From a virus, in the IMG/VR virus record IMGVR_UViG_3300022935_002565, positions 1 to 23,047 of that record: a stretch of 23,047 nucleotides of DNA; one strand, written 5' to 3'. A program made the position numbers and the translations under genes. Below the pieces are notes generated by a model. It searched no databases. It saw only the letters and a list, made by a program, of their open reading frames with translations, and was not told where the DNA came from. Below, piece by piece: positions 2 to 21,499 of the stretch (position 1 is the stretch's first letter; every line of letters begins with the position of its first letter).

Positions 2-763
2 TACCTTAAAGCGATCAATCCAGACATAGAGATTGTTATGCACACCAACGGCGGAGCAAGAAACAAAGACTTCTGGAAGCTCATTGCGGAGATAGGTGTG
101 TTGGTCACATTCGGTATAGACGGTCTGGAAGATACAAATCATTTATATCGCAGGAATGTCAAGTGGGAAAACTTAATGGCTAATACTAAGACCTACATTG
201 ACAACGGAGGTGAGGCCAGTTGGGAGATGCTTGTTTTTAAGCACAATCAACACCAGATCGAAGACTGTAAAGAACTATCCACAAACATGGGCTTTGTAAC
301 TTTCGAAAACATGTTCAGCGAACGATGGATGGATTTCGATAATGAAGGGAACTATCGAGATATAACATCACTAAAAGTCGATGACTACGTTATTGAAAAG
401 CCTGTCGACCAACGAAAAGACTTCGTAAAAGATGATGCGTGGTTCAAGAACAAGAATGTTTTTGTTTCAGAGCAAACAGTAAAAAAAGATTTTTTTATAA
501 GAAAGATAAATTGTCTGGCATGCCAGCCAAACAAACGTGAAATCTACCTACGTGCTAATGGGTATGTAAGTCCTTGTTGTATATTGGGAGCCGTTGAAAA
601 CCACGAACCTAAACAATTAATCAAAGACTACGCTAAAATAAATCTGCATCACACCAATCTCAAAGATATTCTAGAAGGAGATTTTTTTAAGAACCTGGAG
701 AACGGTATCAACGGTGGAGAAAAAAGACTACAAGGGTGCTACCACGCCTGTGGGGTGAAATAG
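2..763 (+). CDS. Radical SAM protein with C-terminal SPASM-type cysteines (5' end cut by window)
   Basis: The frame is open from base 2, so the gene begins upstream of the window and the ATG at 38 is internal. The visible 253 residues cover the later strands of a radical SAM barrel (IEIVMHTNGG, then VLVTFGIDGLEDTNHLYRR). A cysteine-rich tail follows: CxxC at visible residues 171/174, a CC pair at 192/193, and C246/C250. That pattern fits a SPASM/twitch auxiliary iron-sulfur domain. The N-terminal CxxxCxxC that binds the SAM-cleaving cluster must lie off the left edge. Family members act on peptides, sugars or small molecules; the substrate here is unknown. The stop codon abuts the next gene's ATG at 764, so the two are probably co-translated. 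Confidence 0.8.
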   Translation, partial: YLKAINPDIEIVMHTNGGARNKDFWKLIAEIGVLVTFGIDGLEDTNHLYRRNVKWENLMANTKTYIDNGGEASWEMLVFKHNQHQIEDCKELSTNMGFVTFENMFSERWMDFDNEGNYRDITSLKVDDYVIEKPVDQRKDFVKDDAWFKNKNVFVSEQTVKKDFFIRKINCLACQPNKREIYLRANGYVSPCCILGAVENHEPKQLIKDYAKINLHHTNLKDILEGDFFKNLENGINGGEKRLQGCYHACGVK

Positions 764-1939
764 ATGTCTACTGAATGTAAGTTGGCTAAACTAGCACTTA
801 ACTTCGACATGAGCGGAATGGTGCAACCTTGCCATCTCACAGAATACTTCCTCAAGGATAAAGACGGAAGGCATTTTAATGTGCTGACAGATGATGTCAA
901 AGATATCTGGAACAGCGAACATAGAAAAAAACTGCTAGACGATCATGCCAACGGAATAAAAAACCCAACGTGTAAACTTTGTTGGGATATGGAAGAGACC
1001 GGTGTAGAATCAATGAGGCAGAGCCAAAACAATCTTTTAAAAGATGTAGAAGTACTGGAACAACCACGCGTGATGGTAGTTAAACCCGGGAATCTATGTA
1101 ATAATGCCTGCAGAAGTTGTAATGCTCATACCAGCAGTATGTGGTACAAGGACGACCATGCTATGAACCATGAGAATACGAGCTTCAAAGAATACTTAAA
1201 ATTTTTTCAACGGCACAAGACAGCGTACACTAACAATCAATTGCTGGAAAACAGGTTTGCCAAGTGGGAAGATAAGATTATAGAGTGGGATATGTTTGGG
1301 GGAGAACCTTTAATTGTTCCTCTTTTTTATAAGATTCTGAATCAGTCTTGTACAAGTGAGAACGTCCACACAAAAAACTTTAATGTTCACACTAATGGAA
1401 TGATTTATTCGGAAGGACTGATAAAAAAACTCAGTAAGTTTCGTGAGTCTCACATGGGATTCAGCATAGACGCCATAGGCGAAAAAAATGATTACATCAG
1501 ACACGGTAGTAAATGGGATAACATCATTAACAACTTAAAAAGATATGTTGAGGATTGTGCAGAATATCCTAATGTTTCGATCACGGTGCGGACAACCATA
1601 ACTCCCTGGAACATTTATCACTATGATGAAAATTTTGAATATTTTAGCAAGATGGGTATCCTTGCCATCGGATGTTGGTGTAATGATAAGCCGTGGAATG
1701 ATCTTAGATATCTTCCGGAAAATGTAAAAAAAAATGTACTAGACAAATTATTATTATACAAAAACAATAGAGATGAATGGCAAGAACTAATTGTTGATTT
1801 AACGAAATGGATGATGTCACGTCCTGCCGATTATAACAAATTAAAAAATTCTTTTATGGAATTCAACAAGACGCTAGATGAATTGAGGGGACAAAAATTT
1901 GAAAGCGTGTTCCCCGAATACTCTAAACTTTTTACATAA
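764..1939 (+). CDS. Radical SAM protein with N-terminal twitch-like domain
   Basis: A 391-residue protein. An N-terminal cysteine set (C5, C23, and CxxC at 70/73) resembles the half-SPASM (twitch) domain that precedes the barrel in N-twitch radical SAM proteins. The cluster-binding CxxxCxxC is at 112/116/119 in GNLCNNACRSC. It is followed by the GGEP motif (179-182), which contacts the SAM amino group in this superfamily, and by a strand ending in HTNG. The chemistry should be reductive SAM cleavage to a 5'-deoxyadenosyl radical; the substrate is unknown. The ATG directly follows the previous stop, and the next gene starts one base after this stop, so the three radical SAM genes probably form one transcript. 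The second domain is missed if only the core motif is searched. Confidence 0.85.
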   Translation: MSTECKLAKLALNFDMSGMVQPCHLTEYFLKDKDGRHFNVLTDDVKDIWNSEHRKKLLDDHANGIKNPTCKLCWDMEETGVESMRQSQNNLLKDVEVLEQPRVMVVKPGNLCNNACRSCNAHTSSMWYKDDHAMNHENTSFKEYLKFFQRHKTAYTNNQLLENRFAKWEDKIIEWDMFGGEPLIVPLFYKILNQSCTSENVHTKNFNVHTNGMIYSEGLIKKLSKFRESHMGFSIDAIGEKNDYIRHGSKWDNIINNLKRYVEDCAEYPNVSITVRTTITPWNIYHYDENFEYFSKMGILAIGCWCNDKPWNDLRYLPENVKKNVLDKLLLYKNNRDEWQELIVDLTKWMMSRPADYNKLKNSFMEFNKTLDELRGQKFESVFPEYSKLFT

Positions 1940-1940
1940 C

Positions 1941-3239
1941 ATGGGCATATCTAAGCAACCTCCAAAACCTTTCCCCATCAAAAAGGGACTGCCTTGTCAG
2001 CTCAAATGGACACACAGTACGATCTATCTCACAGACGGAGTCAGCGCGAGTTGTCATAGGGTCCTAGGAGATACGTTAGAAGTGCGCGATGGAGAACTCA
2101 ACTTCCACAACTTGCCCGCCAAACTGGAAGCGCGGAGGAAGATGTTGCGTGGCGAATGGCCCGGTCGTGGCTGTGAGCACTGCAAACACATCGAGGAGGC
2201 CGGTGGCACTTCAGACAGGATGATTCATTTAAATCTAGAGGGAACGACAGCACCGCCGGAACTGGACACAGACTTGGAAGCGGTCGACGTCACCCCGAGG
2301 CAGTTGGAGGTATACTGGGGCAATACATGCCAGCAATCATGTATATACTGTGGAGCCCATTACAGCTCGACCATACAGCAGGAAGAAAAAAGGTTTGGGG
2401 AGTTCAATGTTGAAGGTGTGCGCTTAAGAAATGATTGGGAAAAGAATCCTAACATAGAGCAACACACGGAATTACTTTTCAAATGGTTTGAAAAACATTT
2501 ACACAAATTACACAAGATATTCGTTATGGGGGGAGAACCTTTCCTACAGAAGGAGACATTCAGGTTCATAGAGTTCCTGGAGAAGGGAGACTATCCGGAT
2601 CTCACATTGGTTTTTTTCAGCAACCACAACATAGAAAATGAGAGATTCAAGGGATGGATCGATAGATTAGATCGACTACAGAAGTCGGGTAGACTAGACA
2701 AGATACAATTATTCTTCAGTTGTGATGCATTTGGTCCGGAAGGAGAATATGTGAGGACTGGACTGGATTTAGATATTGCTGTTAAGAACTTTGAACACAT
2801 ACTACACAACACAAACATAGAACAGGGTATAAACTCCGCCCTCACTGTGACCGCCGTCCCGGGAATGCCAGCCATGGTAAAATACATCAACGAATGTAGC
2901 AAGATCAAACCCATCTACTGGAGCATGATGAAAGCAAATCAATACGAGTTATCCCCGCGACCATATATGTATCCAGGAATTTTTGGTGATAAAATCAATC
3001 AATGGGGTCTCAAAGAAGCAGTCGAGATGTTTGATACAAATTCTCATGGATATCCCGATTCAGTAAAGGTTTCACATAAAAGATACATGAAGGGTGCGAT
3101 GCAAGAGTTTGAAAAACGAGATCCTAATACCTTTAGACAGAAGCAATTTAAAATATGGCTTAATGAACTAGATCGTAGACGTGGTACCGATTGGAAAGTA
3201 ATTTATCCACAGATTTGGGAACTAGTAAAAGACTTGTAA
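1941..3239 (+). CDS. Radical SAM protein with N-terminal twitch-like domain (second copy)
   Basis: A 432-residue protein with the same design as its upstream neighbour. The N-terminal cysteines are C19, C38 and a CxxC at 78/81. The radical SAM CxxxCxxC lies at 130/134/137 (GNTCQQSCIYC) and GGEP at 197-200, followed by FFSNHN. I chose the ATG at 1941, one base after the preceding stop. An upstream ATG at 1899 would overlap the previous gene by 41 bases and adds no recognisable sequence. No clear Shine-Dalgarno sequence is seen, so translation may be coupled. Its composition looks richer in G+C than the preceding gene, especially in the first half, so the two may have been acquired separately. 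The stop abuts the stop of the convergent gene at 3240. Substrate unknown. Confidence 0.85.
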   Translation: MGISKQPPKPFPIKKGLPCQLKWTHSTIYLTDGVSASCHRVLGDTLEVRDGELNFHNLPAKLEARRKMLRGEWPGRGCEHCKHIEEAGGTSDRMIHLNLEGTTAPPELDTDLEAVDVTPRQLEVYWGNTCQQSCIYCGAHYSSTIQQEEKRFGEFNVEGVRLRNDWEKNPNIEQHTELLFKWFEKHLHKLHKIFVMGGEPFLQKETFRFIEFLEKGDYPDLTLVFFSNHNIENERFKGWIDRLDRLQKSGRLDKIQLFFSCDAFGPEGEYVRTGLDLDIAVKNFEHILHNTNIEQGINSALTVTAVPGMPAMVKYINECSKIKPIYWSMMKANQYELSPRPYMYPGIFGDKINQWGLKEAVEMFDTNSHGYPDSVKVSHKRYMKGAMQEFEKRDPNTFRQKQFKIWLNELDRRRGTDWKVIYPQIWELVKDL

Positions 3240-3596
3240 TTACTTCCTACGGTTCATGGCCGACTTGGCCATCTTCTTGACCACATCCGTTGACCCTTGG
3301 TCGTCGTAGTCCATCGCAGGATTGTCTTCTGCCTCTTGATCCGTCTTCACAACAATCTTCTCGTTGTCGAAATCCGCTACCACGTTTTTCAGATCGCCAT
3401 CGGCATCATAGATCCTCTTGAACACGTCGTAGTTGAATGCTGGATAACCGGTGTTGCTCATGATCTGTTTGACTGCGTCCATGCTGACATCACTTGGCAT
3501 GTCCTTCTCGTCGGCGTCGCCCTTCATGTTCAACAGGATGTTGATCAATGCTGACTCTAGGTCTGTGTCGCTTTTGTTGAATTCGAAAAATCTCAC
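3240..3596 (-). CDS. Small acidic phage protein, function unknown (GTG start)
   Basis: A 118-residue acidic protein ending in a basic tail (KKMAKSAMNRRK). It starts at GTG (3596-3594), preceded by GGGAAG about eight bases upstream, which serves as the ribosome binding site. I see no catalytic motif. It is the last gene of the leftward block, four bases after the end of the 287-residue gene, so the two are probably co-transcribed. It looks like the short conserved proteins of unknown function in marine T4-like phages. That comparison is from memory and was not searched. Confidence 0.7.
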   Translation of the reverse strand: MRFFEFNKSDTDLESALINILLNMKGDADEKDMPSDVSMDAVKQIMSNTGYPAFNYDVFKRIYDADGDLKNVVADFDNEKIVVKTDQEAEDNPAMDYDDQGSTDVVKKMAKSAMNRRK

Positions 3597-3600
3597 GGGA

Positions 3601-4464
3601 CTACTTCCCTGCTAGTTTACTGAACAATCTGTTTGATGCTTCAAACACTTCTTTGGATTCTCTCTGTTCTCTGCCTTCTGGTTCTGTTCCACCCGCTTCG
3701 GCATCAGAGGCGCCAAACTCATCTGATTCTAGGTCGTCGGTCCCTAGGTCATCTAAGTCTGCGTCTGTTGTGTCCATGTCCATCGTGTCATCGGCGCCCA
3801 TAGGGTCTGATGCTACTTCTTCTCCGGTCAAAATTCTTACACCGTTGTCCAGTTCTTGTCTGGTTGTCGTTAAAGTGGCTTCCGCCTGTTCAATCGCTGG
3901 TTGGATTTTTTGTAGGAATGCGTCTGATTTCTCAGCACCCATCTCGTCTCTGATTCTGTCTGCCAGTTCTAACATGCCTTCTGTCTTCATTGATGCTAGA
4001 TCTTCCAAGAATGATGTGACCTTGTCCATCATGTCTTTTGCGGCTAAAATTAATTCTGATTGTTCCTCAACACCTTCTTTGGTCATTATCTTGCTGACGA
4101 TCTTCTTCTCGTCTTGGTCCAGTGCCTGGCCCTTGTCCAGTTTGCTTTTCGCTGACAGTGTCGTTGATGCTACCTTGGTCATTGGATCTGATGAACCGCC
4201 GTACTCCGCAAGTTTCCTCTCTTGTATCGCTTGGTTGATGATGTCCAACATCATTTGGTTCTTCTGGTAACCGTCGTCCTTGAGTTCCTGTCCGAAGTGT
4301 GTGTTCTGTGTGATCTCGTGTATCTTTGTTCTCACGTGATTGGCGTAGTCCTGCAGTTCTTCCTCGTTGAACTGTGACAGATCCATTGTCATGTTGAATC
4401 TAGATTCGAATTCTTTCAGCAATGATTCTGTTGTGATAGGTTTTGTAAGGTCTAAGCTCTTCAT
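3601..4464 (-). CDS. Acidic helical phage protein, possibly scaffold-like
   Basis: A 287-residue protein. Residues 1-210 are rich in predicted helix and coiled coil (many E, K, Q, L). A strongly acidic low-complexity stretch of repeated Asp, Met and Thr follows (about 215-265), then a short basic C-terminus. No enzyme motif is visible. Long acidic helical proteins of about this size occur among T4-type prohead core and scaffold proteins, but there is no residue-level match that would justify naming it. It starts at ATG 4464, eight bases after a TAAATA element and without a Shine-Dalgarno sequence. The GTG gene follows four bases downstream. Confidence 0.7.
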   Translation of the reverse strand: MKSLDLTKPITTESLLKEFESRFNMTMDLSQFNEEELQDYANHVRTKIHEITQNTHFGQELKDDGYQKNQMMLDIINQAIQERKLAEYGGSSDPMTKVASTTLSAKSKLDKGQALDQDEKKIVSKIMTKEGVEEQSELILAAKDMMDKVTSFLEDLASMKTEGMLELADRIRDEMGAEKSDAFLQKIQPAIEQAEATLTTTRQELDNGVRILTGEEVASDPMGADDTMDMDTTDADLDDLGTDDLESDEFGASDAEAGGTEPEGREQRESKEVFEASNRLFSKLAGK

Positions 4465-7562: not shown

Positions 7563-8183
7563 TTAAGATTTGAGCCACACTTCATCACTTCTCACACGTG
7601 AATGACGATTATAACCAAGGTTACGCAGTATTTTCCTAGATTCTTCAACTATCTTGGGCCTCTTGCGTTCCTTCATCTCAATGTTGATCACGGGACTGTT
7701 TCTCTTCAGGGTCTCCTGTGCACCTCGGAGCACTGGTATCTCGAACCCATCCACATCTATCTTGATGTAGTCAAGATTACGGAGATCGAAACTGTCAAGG
7801 GATCGACATTCTATGTCGCCATCGCGAGGTGTGGTGTCCCCCACCACGTAGTTTAGATGTGTGTGATTGGTGCCCTGTTCGGCCGTGTGTGAATGTGAGC
7901 TCAACCCATATGGATACAGTGTCACGTTTGATTCTGTGATGTTCCTGTTGAAGCACTCTCTGAAGTTGGGGTTGGGTTCGAAACAGATCACATGGTCGAA
8001 CCTCTTGGCCAAGGGTCTTGCCCATTCGCCAACGTTGGCTCCTATGTCCAGGCATACACGCCATTGCTTGACATATTTCAAACTGGCATCTCTCTGTGCC
8101 TGTTGACCGTTGCCTGCCTCTTCTAGGTAAGTGGGTTCGGTGTGATGGAGATAGTATACCCAGTAACTATTTTCGTTTGGCAT
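7563..8183 (-). CDS. FkbM-family SAM-dependent methyltransferase
   Basis: A 206-residue protein from the ATG at 8183, with AAGGA five bases upstream. A longer frame to 8267 exists but runs through the cysteine-rich gene. Motif I is LDIGANVGEW (Asp at 46), followed by ICFEPNP, where the acidic residue contacts the SAM ribose. YIKIDVDGFEIPVLRG is the hallmark of FkbM-type O-methyltransferases. Members methylate hydroxyls of sugars or natural products. Phage copies sit beside glycan genes and may mask surface sugars. The start overlaps the 38-residue cysteine-rich gene by 17 bases, so the enzyme is translated from the same message. Confidence 0.88.
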   Translation of the reverse strand: MPNENSYWVYYLHHTEPTYLEEAGNGQQAQRDASLKYVKQWRVCLDIGANVGEWARPLAKRFDHVICFEPNPNFRECFNRNITESNVTLYPYGLSSHSHTAEQGTNHTHLNYVVGDTTPRDGDIECRSLDSFDLRNLDYIKIDVDGFEIPVLRGAQETLKRNSPVINIEMKERKRPKIVEESRKILRNLGYNRHSRVRSDEVWLKS

Positions 8184-8283
8184 CACATTCCTTACAAGCA
8201 CAGTCTGGACAGTCCCTGCACTCGGTACAGGATTTTCTACAGTGCTGTTCACACCCACACTTCTCACAGATGTACTTGATCAT
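8167..8283 (-). CDS. Ten-cysteine micro-protein B (38 residues)
   Basis: Read directly from the minus strand: 38 residues starting MIKYICEKCGCEQHC and ending at TAG. Cysteines are at 6, 9, 11, 15, 19, 22, 25, 28, 30 and 33, which is CxxCxCxxxCxxxCxxCxxCxxCxCxxC. The spacing is identical to that of the gene just upstream, though most other residues differ, so both are under selection as proteins and probably arose by duplication. With 26 percent Cys, a single His and a basic tail, it should bind several Zn(II), Cu(I) or iron-sulfur-type metals, like a small metallothionein. GAGAGG about ten bases upstream can serve as ribosome binding site. The start is two bases after the upstream stop, and the 3' end overlaps the FkbM gene. 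No known family is recognised. Confidence 0.8.
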   Translation of the reverse strand: MIKYICEKCGCEQHCRKSCTECRDCPDCACKECDAKRK

Positions 8284-13473: not shown

Positions 13474-14519
13474 TATTTGGTCAGCTCTTCTTTGTACACA
13501 GCATTGTAACCCAACTGATTCTTTCCAAAGTCAGACAGTGTTTTCAATGCACCCGGTGTGATGAATGACTTCAGCGTCCTCACTGCGGCGTCACCCTCTG
13601 CACCCGTTCTCCATTCGTACTTGCCAACCTTCTTCTCGATGGCGGCCACCGACTCTGGATCCTTGATCATCTTGTCCAAAGCGGCAACAAGTTTCGCTTT
13701 GTTTGGATTGCCCGCGTTCACCCAGAATGCTTTCTGTAATGCATCTCTCCAACTTTTGACCAGTTTGTATGCATCATAGAAGTCACCACTCGGTGCGACT
13801 CCGTATGTGGATTCATACAGTGCTTCGAATGTTGGCTCTGTGAAGTTTGGATCAGCATCATGCTCACCCGTTTTTACATTCAGTAGTCCATGATGGAACC
13901 AAGTGTATGCGTCACCTTTGCCTATCACTGGCATCACGTGTTTCTTGTATGCGGCAGGGTTCTCCCTTGTAGCGTTCAAGTCACCTCTGATGAATGCAAG
14001 TCTCCTCTCTGAACCTTTCATACCTTTTACCCATACTATTTTTTCTTCAAATGTTTTTACTGGATCACCGTCAGGTCCTGTAAGCAACATAACGATTGCC
14101 ATGATCTCTGGGGTCATTCCAGATCCTGACGGAAACTGTATAGGTCCGTTTTTCGTGTCTGCCTTGTTCCTTGCACCCACAATGATGTTAAGGTTCATGT
14201 GTCCCACTGATTCCCAATCAAAGTAGTTGTACTCAACTGGCTCCACAAGATACGATATACCATTACCACCGTGTGATACTAATATGGTCTTGTCGTCGAA
14301 CCTCAGTTTATTTTGGAACTCGTTCGGTCCCAGTTGATCTCTTGCACCTGGCTTGTAGATAAGATTGATCTTCTCACCCAGGTGTTTCTCCCATTCCGCT
14401 ACAACTATCTGTGCCCACACAGAAGTTCCACCAGAAGGTTTTTGAGGCACGATCAAGTTGTAATCTGCCAAGGCTGTTGTTGTCATTAACACCAACGCCA
14501 TTATTGTTTTCTTAAGCAT
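13473..14519 (-). CDS. tctC: TctC-like periplasmic substrate-binding protein (tripartite tricarboxylate transporter family)
   Basis: A 348-residue protein with a clear Sec signal peptide: KK at 3-4, hydrophobic 5-15, and TALA before D19. The mature part starts with an IVPQKPSGGTSVWAQIV strand-loop matching the TctC/Bug ligand loop. A two-lobe body follows, with VSHGGNGISYLVEP, MTPEIMAIVMLL and a GAPSGDFYDAYK-like hinge region. Such proteins capture di- and tricarboxylates or related acids in the periplasm and deliver them to TctA. The gene overlaps tctA by eight bases. No TctB small subunit is present; the next gene is sulfotransferase-like. Confidence 0.85.
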   Translation of the reverse strand: MLKKTIMALVLMTTTALADYNLIVPQKPSGGTSVWAQIVVAEWEKHLGEKINLIYKPGARDQLGPNEFQNKLRFDDKTILVSHGGNGISYLVEPVEYNYFDWESVGHMNLNIIVGARNKADTKNGPIQFPSGSGMTPEIMAIVMLLTGPDGDPVKTFEEKIVWVKGMKGSERRLAFIRGDLNATRENPAAYKKHVMPVIGKGDAYTWFHHGLLNVKTGEHDADPNFTEPTFEALYESTYGVAPSGDFYDAYKLVKSWRDALQKAFWVNAGNPNKAKLVAALDKMIKDPESVAAIEKKVGKYEWRTGAEGDAAVRTLKSFITPGALKTLSDFGKNQLGYNAVYKEELTK

Positions 14520-15948
14520 AGTCTAATCGACTCCTTTTTGTTATTCCCCAATACAGTAGCAGTATAACACATGCCATCAAGAAAATAAAGATAGGTCTTG
14601 TTATTAAATCATTTACTGTATGTAAGGATGTTAGTTGATAAGTGAGGTTATAAATCCTGTCACTCAATATGTACCCAATCAACAGTGCTGGCCTGCTGAC
14701 TTGGAATTTTTTACAAAGCACTCCGAATATAGAGAATGCTGTCAGTACCGCTAGGTCTTCCCACCCTCCTGTGTACTGTAAGGTTGCCCAAACAATCACA
14801 GCAAGTATGAAAGGGAAATAGTAAACGTATGGAATACGTGTCACCCACCCTGCGAAATATGCCAGTCCATAACACAAGACGGCAGTGATGATCGTTCCAA
14901 GCAGGAACGCATAAGTCATGCTGTCAAATAATTTGTCGTCGTAGAACGTATCAGGTGATCCCAGATCGATGCCTAGGTATAGAAACAATCCCATCAGTAT
15001 CGCGGCGAAACTAGCACCTGGTATACCAAATAGCACAGTGGGAATGAATGACGAGGCCTTCTGTGCATTGTTGGCACCCTCGGCGCCCACCACTCCTCTT
15101 ACATTACCATCACCAAACTTCTCCTTTGGATTGGCCGCGACCGTGGCACCGTATGCCAACCAGTCCGCCATTGCACCACCCAGTCCAGGTAGCAGTCCTA
15201 TGAAAGAACCTATGGCGCCACCTCTAATACTATCCTTCCAACATCGTACAGTATCCTTGACCCCTTGTTTGAGATCATTCCAACTGCCGTGTTCTGCCCG
15301 TATCGTTGTGGTCTTCTTCCTGTTGAACCATCCGTCCCAGAGCTCTGGTATGGCGAAAAGTCCTGCCATGTAAGGTAAAATCTGTACACCGTCTTCGAGG
15401 TATCGCCAACCCATCGTGAATCTCGGCACATTGTTCACATCAACACCTACCAGTCCAACGGTCACACCTATGACAATAGCAAGTACACTCCTAACATATT
15501 TCCTAGTGGACACAAATCCCACAGTGACAAATGCCAATAGTACCAATGCCCACAGTTCGGGTATGCCCATGTACATCACAACTTTGGTGTACCAAGGCAA
15601 GAATAAAAATGTTAGTGATCCCCAGAACAGACCATTGCATGTTGATGATGTGATAGCGGCTGAAAGAGCCCTAGTGGCCTCACCGTTCTTGGCCATGGGG
15701 AATCCATCCACCATGGTGGCCGCCGCTGAGTTGGCTCCTGGTATGCCCAACAGCACGCCTGCGAATGAATCACCGGTTGTTGAGGATGCCACAACTGCCA
15801 CACAGAATATCACGCCCAGGTAGGGATCTCCTACGAAGTAGGGCATGACTCCAAATAGTGTGATAAGACCTGTTGTTGCTCCCGCGGCTGGTATTAGGCC
15901 AATGATTAAGCCGTAAACAATACCCGCCATTAATATAGCAAGTTCCAT
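14512..15948 (-). CDS. tctA: TctA-like large membrane permease (tripartite tricarboxylate transporter family)
   Basis: A 478-residue, strongly hydrophobic protein of near-normal length for TctA. The family's duplicated halves are both present: GLIPAAGATTGL (17-28) with GIPGANSAAATMVDGFPMAKNG in the first, and GLLPGLGGAMADW (251-263) with a second GIPGASFAAILMGL in the other. About ten to twelve membrane segments are visible. TctA is the permease that moves carboxylates inward using an ion gradient after delivery by TctC. The gene looks intact with no frameshift. It is the first gene of a leftward cluster that overlaps tctC. Phage carriage of a full-length permease is unusual. The substrate cannot be read from sequence. 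Confidence 0.88.
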   Translation of the reverse strand: MELAILMAGIVYGLIIGLIPAAGATTGLITLFGVMPYFVGDPYLGVIFCVAVVASSTTGDSFAGVLLGIPGANSAAATMVDGFPMAKNGEATRALSAAITSSTCNGLFWGSLTFLFLPWYTKVVMYMGIPELWALVLLAFVTVGFVSTRKYVRSVLAIVIGVTVGLVGVDVNNVPRFTMGWRYLEDGVQILPYMAGLFAIPELWDGWFNRKKTTTIRAEHGSWNDLKQGVKDTVRCWKDSIRGGAIGSFIGLLPGLGGAMADWLAYGATVAANPKEKFGDGNVRGVVGAEGANNAQKASSFIPTVLFGIPGASFAAILMGLFLYLGIDLGSPDTFYDDKLFDSMTYAFLLGTIITAVLCYGLAYFAGWVTRIPYVYYFPFILAVIVWATLQYTGGWEDLAVLTAFSIFGVLCKKFQVSRPALLIGYILSDRIYNLTYQLTSLHTVNDLITRPIFIFLMACVILLLYWGITKRSRLDYA

Positions 15949-19385: not shown

Positions 19386-19715
19386 TTAGAATAGATGATC
19401 TTCTGAATTTTCTTTGGTGTATCCGTTTTTACCCCAACTATCCGATGATAGTAAAGCGTCTTTTTGTGTGTTGTAGGTGGCGCCAATACCACTTGTGTCA
19501 AAGCCTTCGGTTTTTTTCACTTTTGTATAATCGCCATTGGCATCTGCTACCAATTGATATTCAACTCTACTAGTATAGTTGTCCACAACTGCCAGAGCTT
19601 CTGCTGTCCAAAAAAAAGATTTGGCCTCGTCTATCGTTGCAAAGACCGTAAGTGCTGTAGACCCATCGTCTATCTGAGAGTTTATTGTTGTAAACATGTT
19701 ATGGTAAGTTGGCAT
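19386..19715 (-). CDS. Small protein of unknown function at the end of the sugar operon
   Basis: A 109-residue protein from ATG 19715 (MPTYHNMFTTINSQIDDG). CAGGAGA about seven bases upstream fixes this start; the frame is open to 19844 but upstream ATGs lie inside the dehydrogenase gene. It has no cysteine or known motif, is rich in Thr, Ser and Asp, and looks mostly beta with two short helices. The tail is acidic and charged. It overlaps the dehydrogenase gene by 17 bases and is the last gene before the terminator on the opposite strand. Confidence 0.65.
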   Translation of the reverse strand: MPTYHNMFTTINSQIDDGSTALTVFATIDEAKSFFWTAEALAVVDNYTSRVEYQLVADANGDYTKVKKTEGFDTSGIGATYNTQKDALLSSDSWGKNGYTKENSEDHLF

Positions 19716-20895
19716 CTGTTTTTTCTCCTGTAAACTTTGTGTATTTACCATAGTAGACCACATTTTCCGCTTTAGGATAGGTTCTCCATGGATCAAATAT
19801 GATAGTTTTATCGTCTGTGGTGATTTGGTCTGACTCATGCACACGCACTATAACCTCCGCAGGATTGTCAAACCCATGCACAATCTGTCCACCATGCTTG
19901 ACCACATAGTGTTGCACCAATAGTGAATATGATCCGTCCATTAAATTAGTACCGGGTTTGTAACTATCCGATGTAAAGTATATGTTCTTGCCATGCTCGA
20001 GTATTGCTTTTGCCATGTGTTCGGCTTGCCTCTCTCTTGCTGTCATTATGCTTTCGAACAGGTCATAACCTAGATTTAATTCCTTTGCTAACCATCTTAG
20101 AGCGATGTTGTCCCTGGGATGGCACGCACCACCGTCGCCCATTCCCGCTTTCATGTAGGCTGGACTGACTATACGTTTGGTGCTTTTTGCTAGTGCCTGT
20201 GTGACCACGTCAACATTCATGTTGCCCAGTTTGTGTGCCACGTCCTGTATCATGTTGACGAGGGCAACCTTGTTGCTTATGAAGGTGTTGTAGAATATCT
20301 TCATGCTCTCCACTTCTTCATATGTACCAAACTCCATCCTTGGGAAGTTTTCACAAACCTGATTGTAGAAACTTTCCAGCAGTTCACTTCGTTCTCTGCA
20401 TCTCGAACCCTTAAGTCCCTTCTTGGATCCTATCATTATCATCTCTGGATTAAGCATGTCATCCGCTACGGTGCCCATGGCTATGAGGTAAGGGTTGTAT
20501 ATTAATTTTGTGTTTGTAACGATAGGATGCAATTCTCTGCGTATTGTTCCTGGTAACACAGTTGATATCAGCACCAGGGTCTGTTCTGGTTTCATGTATT
20601 TGTTACACTTGCTCAATACTTGTTTGACGGCGGTGTAGTCAAAATCCTTCACAGGCAAATGGCTCGTGGGTGCTCTTCCATCATACCCATCCTCGTGTGG
20701 AGTTGGCGTGGCCACAAACACGATGTCTCTGTCTCGGCAAACATCTTCGATCGAATCTCTGATCTCGATGTGCGAACTGGTCTTGGAAAGGATGTCATAT
20801 CCCGTCACATCAAATCCCTTGTCCGCGATGGCCTCGGCACACGGCATGCCCAATTTTCCCAGACCTATAAATCCAATTTTAGTCGCATATATCAT
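19699..20895 (-). CDS. UDP-glucose/GDP-mannose dehydrogenase family protein
   Basis: A 398-residue protein from ATG 20895, with AAGGA 11 bases upstream; an ATG at 20907 is also in frame. The NAD-binding Rossmann motif KIGFIGLGKLGMP is at residues 6-18. The family's central helix and the catalytic cysteine C258 follow in GMGDGGACHPRDN, a variant of the GFGGSCFPKD motif with His for Phe and Arg for Lys. The C-terminal third holds the UDP-sugar-binding half. It should oxidise the C6 hydroxyl of a nucleotide sugar to a carboxylate, for example UDP-glucose to UDP-glucuronate, giving acidic sugar donors. The start overlaps the sulfotransferase gene by 17 bases. Confidence 0.85.
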   Translation of the reverse strand: MIYATKIGFIGLGKLGMPCAEAIADKGFDVTGYDILSKTSSHIEIRDSIEDVCRDRDIVFVATPTPHEDGYDGRAPTSHLPVKDFDYTAVKQVLSKCNKYMKPEQTLVLISTVLPGTIRRELHPIVTNTKLIYNPYLIAMGTVADDMLNPEMIMIGSKKGLKGSRCRERSELLESFYNQVCENFPRMEFGTYEEVESMKIFYNTFISNKVALVNMIQDVAHKLGNMNVDVVTQALAKSTKRIVSPAYMKAGMGDGGACHPRDNIALRWLAKELNLGYDLFESIMTARERQAEHMAKAILEHGKNIYFTSDSYKPGTNLMDGSYSLLVQHYVVKHGGQIVHGFDNPAEVIVRVHESDQITTDDKTIIFDPWRTYPKAENVVYYGKYTKFTGEKTDANLP

Positions 20896-21499
20896 ATAAT
20901 TGTACATCCTTTTTTAGAAAGCCTGTGTAAAAACTCTTGTTAGTTTCAAAGTTCTTTCTATACGCTTCCTCGAACAGCTCGTTTTGCTGTTGGTTTAAGA
21001 TATTTTTATTGCTGTGTCTCACATTATAATCTTTGATATTCAAAGCACTATTTAAATCATTGATGGCCTGTTGTAAATTTTCTATCTTGTGGACGTGATC
21101 AAAATTGATGTTCACGGAATCTATGAGACTGGTTTGCGGAATAAAGTGTATCATGTCATTGTAGTGGGCATATGGTATTCTTTCACCTCGTAGGAAAGAA
21201 TGGTATTTGGCAATAGTGCTATCAAAGTTATCAGAACTTAATTCATTGTAGCACTTCATCCTAAATGCAGATTTCAGCCTAGAGTGAGGTTCTCGTAGGA
21301 ACAGCAATGTCTTGTGTCCTCGTAGTGGTTGTCGGCACAGGAATTGGAAATATTCGCCTAGAGATGTTGATGCACATTTTGGCATATTGAACAACGTGAT
21401 GTTTTCATTTCTATGAAACTTATGGAATTGACACTGTGAGTCATCGTTGTTGAATCTGATCTCTAGGTGATCTATCGAGGGGAGTATTTTATATAACAT
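20879..21499 (-). CDS. Sulfotransferase
   Basis: A 206-residue protein. LFNMPKCASTSLGEYF (36-51) is the 5'-phosphosulfate-binding loop of PAPS-dependent sulfotransferases (PKxxSTSL). TLLFLREPHSRLKSAF (64-79) is the 3'-phosphate-binding strand and helix with R69 and S77. HKIENLQQAINDLNSALNI matches the typical helix that follows. These enzymes move a sulfo group from PAPS to a hydroxyl of a sugar, lipid or protein. The gene sits five bases after a glycosyltransferase-like gene and overlaps the nucleotide-sugar dehydrogenase, so a glycan acceptor is likely. Confidence 0.82.
   Translation of the reverse strand: MLYKILPSIDHLEIRFNNDDSQCQFHKFHRNENITLFNMPKCASTSLGEYFQFLCRQPLRGHKTLLFLREPHSRLKSAFRMKCYNELSSDNFDSTIAKYHSFLRGERIPYAHYNDMIHFIPQTSLIDSVNINFDHVHKIENLQQAINDLNSALNIKDYNVRHSNKNILNQQQNELFEEAYRKNFETNKSFYTGFLKKDVQLYDICD

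Follow-up and report, generated by a model that had tools for sequence, protein, structure and literature searches.

A swappable set of radical SAM genes at a fixed genomic site in marine T4-like phages

The radical SAM gene trio

The stretch analysed here, referred to as the window, is the whole of the IMG/VR virus record IMGVR_UViG_3300022935_002565 (positions 1 to 23,047; 23,047 nucleotides), and it starts with three consecutive radical S-adenosylmethionine (SAM) genes, denoted rSAM-A, rSAM-B and rSAM-C (A, B and C; Table 1). The three genes lie head to tail on the plus strand, and the gaps of 0 and 1 base stated in the initial annotation were confirmed. The open reading frame (ORF) of A is open at the left edge of the window, and since the virus record is the window only, the region to the left of A can be read solely in relatives. 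What is left of A is the end of the radical SAM core and a C-terminal twitch domain; its CxxxCxxC motif falls outside the window and is carried from residue 20 by the relatives of 338–340 amino acids (aa), of which the full-length proteins of contigs L007, L017, L027 and L040 are 68–74% identical to A. For C, the ATG at 1941 is supported as the start, since its relatives align from about residue 10–15 of the TTG-started ORF.

The CxxxCxxC motif of the radical SAM superfamily was found in all full-length A, B and C proteins. PF04055 matched B and the A of L007 above the cut-off, and the A of the window (P0001) and C below it, while PF13186 (SPASM) matched A above the cut-off and also B. Both B and C are members of the NF033640 family (N_Twi_rSAM; curated cut-off of 170 bits for the whole-protein score), matched along their whole length and sharing its N-terminal twitch Cys pattern. 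On the other hand, A scored 32.6 bits and is not a member; its radical SAM and twitch parts match the profile in swapped order.

Table 1. Coordinates, strand and supporting evidence for the radical SAM trio, its right flank and other genes of the window
Feature	Position	Strand	Evidence
rSAM-A, 5′-truncated	2..763	+	PF04055 partial and PF13186; 253 of ~338 aa
A auxiliary (twitch) Cys C171, C192, C193, C246, C250 of P0001	512..751	+	Kept in 33/33 unique A
rSAM-B, N-terminal-twitch radical SAM, 391 aa	764..1939	+	NF033640, 251 bits; relatives 59–66%
B N-terminal twitch Cys C5, C23, C70, C73	776..982	+	Kept in 8/8 unique B
B CxxxCxxC motif C112, C116, C119	1097..1120	+	Kept in 8/8
rSAM-C, N-terminal-twitch radical SAM, 432 aa from ATG	1941..3239	+	NF033640, 222 bits; 37 relatives
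C N-terminal twitch Cys C19, C38, C78, C81	1995..2183	+	Kept in 35/35 unique C
C CxxxCxxC motif C130, C134, C137	2328..2351	+	Kept in 35/35
cl2, conserved small protein, right flank	3240..3527	-	Convergent with C, 0 bases between; same in relatives
cl1, virion structural family phrog_14154, right flank marker	3601..4464	-	PHROG E 9e-13
FkbM-type methyltransferase	7563..8267	-	PF05050, E 1e-18
Secreted-looking protein, 348 aa	13473..14519	-	
TctA transporter subunit, full-length	14512..15948	-	PF01970, E 1e-94
UDP-glucose/GDP-mannose dehydrogenase family gene	19699..20907	-	
Sulfotransfer_2 gene	20879..21499	-	

Auxiliary domains and domain order

A SPASM domain holds two auxiliary clusters with 7 Cys, and a twitch domain holds one auxiliary cluster with about four. 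Among the unique relatives of A, B and C, neither the core motif nor the set of auxiliary Cys varies; A keeps five auxiliary Cys, two of them adjacent, and B and C keep four each. None of the three therefore has the seven of a SPASM domain, and all of them have a set fitting the twitch domain, for which cluster binding is predicted from sequence. Thus, the C-terminal auxiliary Cys set that had been called SPASM-like in A is present, but twitch-like describes its five Cys better; the N-terminal twitch-like sets read in the second and third genes were borne out by the family membership and the four conserved Cys of each.

The NF033640 profile matched the A relatives weakly, each piece at <52 bits, and in several records in swapped order with the core first. 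The C-terminal region of A aligned with two N-terminal twitch regions, that of B (E 1.5e-4) and that of M, another N-twitch gene described below (E 1e-4), with moderate probabilities (51 and 58%), and showed no alignment with four control regions or with the N-terminal twitch of C. The swapped profile order and these alignments make it plausible that A is a domain-permuted version of the N-twitch architecture.

A fixed site in marine T4-like phages

A protein scan of IMG/VR with C identified orthologues in 37 contigs, 60–87% identical. In nearly all of them C lies, on the opposite strand, between a Cas4-like exonuclease gene (phrog_298) and cl2/cl1; one exception is L025, where C has a different setting. 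Past the exonuclease come the gene of a spike-like protein, which has an Mtd_N and a pectate-lyase domain, and then nrdA and nrdB. When B and the truncated A were each used as the single query against IMG/VR, no relatives came up, the tool being limited by its exact-word step; relatives of both were found beside C. No late promoter of the TATAAATA-like type was found ahead of the cassette with the motif used.

Of 141 confirmed stretches, the exonuclease scan kept the 80 that ranked highest in similarity to L007, an A-B-C carrier, and yielded 63 distinct contigs with both flanks. Radical SAM genes were present in 51 of these (13 with C), an unrelated 366-aa gene in one and no gene in 11, so that radical SAM genes hold 51 of the 52 filled sites; because of the ranking, 51/63 may overstate the occupancy in the lineage as a whole. 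In ten empty sites the flanks are 17–56 bases apart. L140, counted among the 51, has only a 64-aa relic of M (86% identical) and a 289-base gap between cl2 and the exonuclease, and is a cassette being lost.

Median dN/dS (nonsynonymous to synonymous substitution rates) was 0.087 for A (13 pairs), 0.066 for B (1 pair) and 0.057 for C (33 pairs). The gene set is real, conserved and under strong purifying selection, and the low dN/dS together with an arrangement that recurs in relatives makes the trio more than a chance neighbourhood. The phage origin supposed for the trio holds, and the homologues are not single and scattered, since they share this site and both B and A prefer certain downstream partners. 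Marine T4-like phages thus keep a swappable radical SAM set at one fixed genomic spot, and the trio of the window is one of its larger versions, namely the A-B-C form of a modular cassette in an uncultured marine T4-like lineage related to Kyanoviridae.

Module combinations and turnover

The cassette occurs as A-B-C, A-C, C, A-M and M. We assigned module labels with in-house hidden Markov models and cut-offs on a list of 79 sites, which combines the exonuclease set, the C-selected contigs and a set gathered with cl1 as flank marker, de-duplicated by the exonuclease C-terminus; the window, with its left flank missing, is excluded. M was found with cl27 at 12 sites, with A at 11 (plus 2 with no called cl2) and by itself at 10, whereas C alone was found at 9, A-C at 6, A-B-C at 4 and A only at 3. 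The most frequent state was the lack of any radical SAM gene, at 13 sites, two of which (L152 and L240) have other ORFs.

In 7/7 unique relatives the gene after B is C, matching the order in the window. After 34 unique A genes the next gene on the same strand is M in 13, C in 8, B in 5 (26/34 with B, C or M) and another gene in 8, and A-C and A-M neighbours mostly overlap or touch, like co-translated genes. Since the minus-strand copies of A form a single group on a quick A tree (support 97), the pairing of A with M apparently arose once. Distances of C tracked those of the exonuclease (rank correlation 0.394, 0/999 permutations as high) more than distances of A did (0.085, 138/999), which points to C as the steadier and A as the exchangeable module; C and A distances correlated at 0.313 (22/999).

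The stepwise modification pathway that had been proposed from the three adjacent genes is therefore upheld only as a functional linkage. An obligate three-enzyme pathway was dropped because C-only and A-C forms without B exist at the numbers given above, A-B-C itself being one of the rarer forms.

A few further observations were made on the modules. The 532-aa forms of C in L018–L020 look like upstream read-through of the ORF caller rather than proteins with an additional domain. The glutathione-peroxidase-like cl27 lies upstream of the minus-strand M (L016, 12573-12992), has short forms without the usual Cys, and is fused to M in L110 (4328-5986) and L176 (8240-9898). PF00255 matched 1 of 55 scanned neighbour proteins, most likely cl27.

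Related genes in other phages and bacteria

In a tblastn search of 50,697 phage records, B and C matched Vibrio phages only, and neither A nor the virion flank cl1 had a match; with cl1 unmatched, these records offer no cultured member of the lineage. None of the three closest isolates checked (HTVC008M, Melnitz and S-CAM9) had an N-twitch match above the cut-off. KVP40 and K566 share N-twitch radical SAM genes with the cassette, clustered in K566, but at 21–27% identity, at another locus and, in K566, with a GT8-type gene. N-twitch matches recur within records, with seven in a 15.6-kb record and six in five records including K566, some of them being gene pieces.

In bacteria, N-twitch genes form arrays in Bdellovibrionota: of 97 genomes searched, 24 had matches at E 1e-40, and 18 of the 24 had two or more, up to 12. 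Such arrays share tandem N-twitch paralogues with the phage cassette but are chromosomal, 22–30% identical to B and free of the exonuclease and virion flanks. A conserved bacterial partner gene was looked for among 97 neighbour proteins and none was identified. G040, a genome which has Bdellovibrionota-type relatives and was searched separately, had 17 N-twitch matches at E 1e-20, and seven radical SAM genes lie within ~10 kb in L045.

The phages with the cassette site have a second N-twitch place beside a DUF6267 gene (L009, 14813-16715; L043, 3627-6171), where L009 carries a C-like gene of 50% identity. L049 and L050, filed under a Betaproteobacteria metagenome-assembled genome, look by eye like T4-like phage in gene content, and L049 has five radical SAM genes with N-twitch matches.

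Possible substrates and mechanism

Radical SAM enzymes generate a 5′-deoxyadenosyl radical by splitting SAM at their core [4Fe-4S] cluster. From this family knowledge, each enzyme of the cassette would generate the radical in the same way, the twitch cluster would bind the substrate or take an electron, and the outcome could be an oxidation, an epimerisation or a cross-link. Gene order suggests that A would share one substrate with an N-twitch enzyme, either C or, in the other cassette type, M, with B optional. Perhaps this substrate is a surface sugar or glycan, belonging to the host or to the virion, in which case module swapping would alter the surface chemistry of infected cells. We regard the whole explanation, a modular cassette at a dedicated site with A and an N-twitch enzyme acting together on a surface sugar or glycan, as a tentative one that falls somewhat short of an even chance. 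That the substrate is most likely a glycan is itself stated with low confidence.

Several neighbours point to a glycan. GDSL/SGNH-like genes occur in some islands (Pfam E 4e-5 and 0.02, below the cut-off). In Vibrio phage K566 the N-twitch cluster adjoins a GT8-type glycosyltransferase, and another N-twitch gene lies near a protein read by eye as a glycosyltransferase. The 55 phage neighbour proteins scanned include UDP-sugar dehydrogenases (4), epimerases (2) and DegT aminotransferases (2), encoded in the vicinity of other radical SAM genes of these phages, and GT8 proteins (2). According to the parts of the published reports available, pelagimyophages carry radical SAM cassettes within the host-recognition cluster alongside lipopolysaccharide genes (PMC7029224), and Tasman Sea viromes are rich in radical SAM, RmlD and glycosyltransferases (PMC7150976).

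Other points weigh against a glycan. The 55 neighbours were picked by hand, no glycan gene is constant in the cassette, and several island passengers have no family match. The Bdellovibrionota neighbours are mixed, with GT2 in 3, a carbamoyltransferase in 1 and DegT in 1 of 97 scanned proteins. By modelled fold, A is as close to peptide enzymes (SuiB, anSME, SkfB and PqqE) as to sugar or nucleoside enzymes (BlsE and DesII), with Z ~16–18.

A glycosyltransferase-like family, 'YISYDEP', named by eye only, is encoded next to N-twitch genes in two genomes of Bdellovibrionota and in a single phage-like contig. It had no match in Pfam (one member searched), PHROGs (two members) or PDB.

Structure comparison used two single-chain models of medium quality (pLDDT 76 and 78), the N-terminal part of C being poorly modelled. 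The modelled A matches SPASM/twitch enzymes (SuiB, anSME, SkfB, PqqE, BlsE, MoaA and BtrN) over its whole length at Z 14–18. It shares PF13186 with them and differs in its 13–19% identity, in having 5 auxiliary Cys rather than 7 and in lacking a linked precursor. BlsE came first by Foldseek E, yet was tied with SuiB, MoaA and anSME by Z.

Such folds could also belong to a cassette that modifies a protein or peptide, such as the tail-spike, the capsid or a ribosomally synthesized and post-translationally modified peptide (RiPP) encoded elsewhere, with A and C/M installing crosslinks, epimers or thioethers. SuiB, anSME, SkfB, PqqE and ChlB are among the closest solved folds of the modelled A (Z 16–18), the sole PDB sequence match of the A profile is ChlB (E 0.002), and the site is two genes from the spike-like protein and beside virion genes. 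What makes a peptide substrate somewhat unlikely is that the cassettes of relatives leave almost no space for a precursor gene beside the maturase: 62/66 occupied sites have no unassigned gap >87 bases, and the two largest gaps in the other four are called genes. A precursor to the left of A had been suggested initially, but in the 4 two-flanked A-B-C relatives the distance between the exonuclease gene and the start of A is -7 to 21 bases, which leaves no room for one in these relatives. Moreover, Pfam and NCBIfam gave no PqqD/RRE (RiPP recognition element) domain in A, B or C, although divergent RREs can escape these models, and the C-only (9/79) and A-only (3/79) sites oppose one fixed peptide pathway.

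An unlikely reading has the enzymes producing or modifying a nucleotide, cofactor or other small molecule, either as auxiliary metabolism or to give a viperin-like nucleotide analogue acting against the host or rival phages. The structural matches include viperin-like and MoaA/BlsE folds, B has a weak viperin_w_prok match (31 bits), and KVP40, with its N-twitch matches, has QueC-like and NadV genes nearby. However, the cassette has no constant gene for nucleotide or cofactor metabolism, and to our knowledge viperins have no twitch domain; membership of B in the viperin family (NF038283) was rejected at 31.2 bits against a cut-off of 180. Least probable is that the site collects mobile cargo of any kind, with the radical SAM genes as unrelated passengers lying together by chance. 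This would agree with the presence of other genes at the site and with A distances that fail to track the backbone, but the near-exclusive filling of the site by radical SAM genes, the kept partner order, the strong purifying selection and the invariant Cys all argue against it.

Returning to surface glycans, the site may work as an interchangeable socket, in which swapped twitch enzymes would give each phage a private modification of the surface glycan or spike, with a role in superinfection exclusion or host range, and in which the permuted A would pair with either of two N-twitch partners. We consider this extension doubtful.

Other genes in the window

The TctA subunit gene and the gene of the 348-aa protein that follows it are a phage-borne tripartite-transporter-like pair. 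The latter protein, named by eye and with no PDB sequence match, keeps its place in G010, G011 and G035 contigs. The overlapping dehydrogenase and Sulfotransfer_2 genes did not cluster with genes from the first set of relatives, and the FkbM-type methyltransferase belongs to a cluster of 19 ORFs in that set.

Prior work and significance

Radical-SAM-rich T4-like marine phages have already been published. TARA_ERS488813_N000010 has 12 radical SAM genes and cas4 (PMC5332604), and it and the pelagimyophages (PMC7029224) share with the present phages a T4-like marine character, many radical SAM genes, Cas4 and come-and-go cassettes, as far as the available text of the two reports tells. That text describes no dedicated site, A/B/C/M modules or permuted twitch, and no description of the fixed site and modules was found in those parts of the open-access literature that were searched. 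The enzyme family is known, and the organisation of the gene set is new. We found no assigned reaction for N-twitch members, and the NF033640 model name gives none. In the available part of another report, 261 'ahbD' calls are listed, with only three contigs holding both radical SAM domains and passing the taxonomic filter (PMC9301287). Metagenome pipelines may misname such genes, and our guess is that these calls are the genes described here.

Radical SAM is a large and chemically inventive superfamily. The locus is nearly always filled, its modules recombine in natural populations and its empty relatives can serve as natural controls, all of which brings the reaction of this cassette within reach of testing; if the glycan reading is true, it would be a new way for marine phages to alter cell surfaces.

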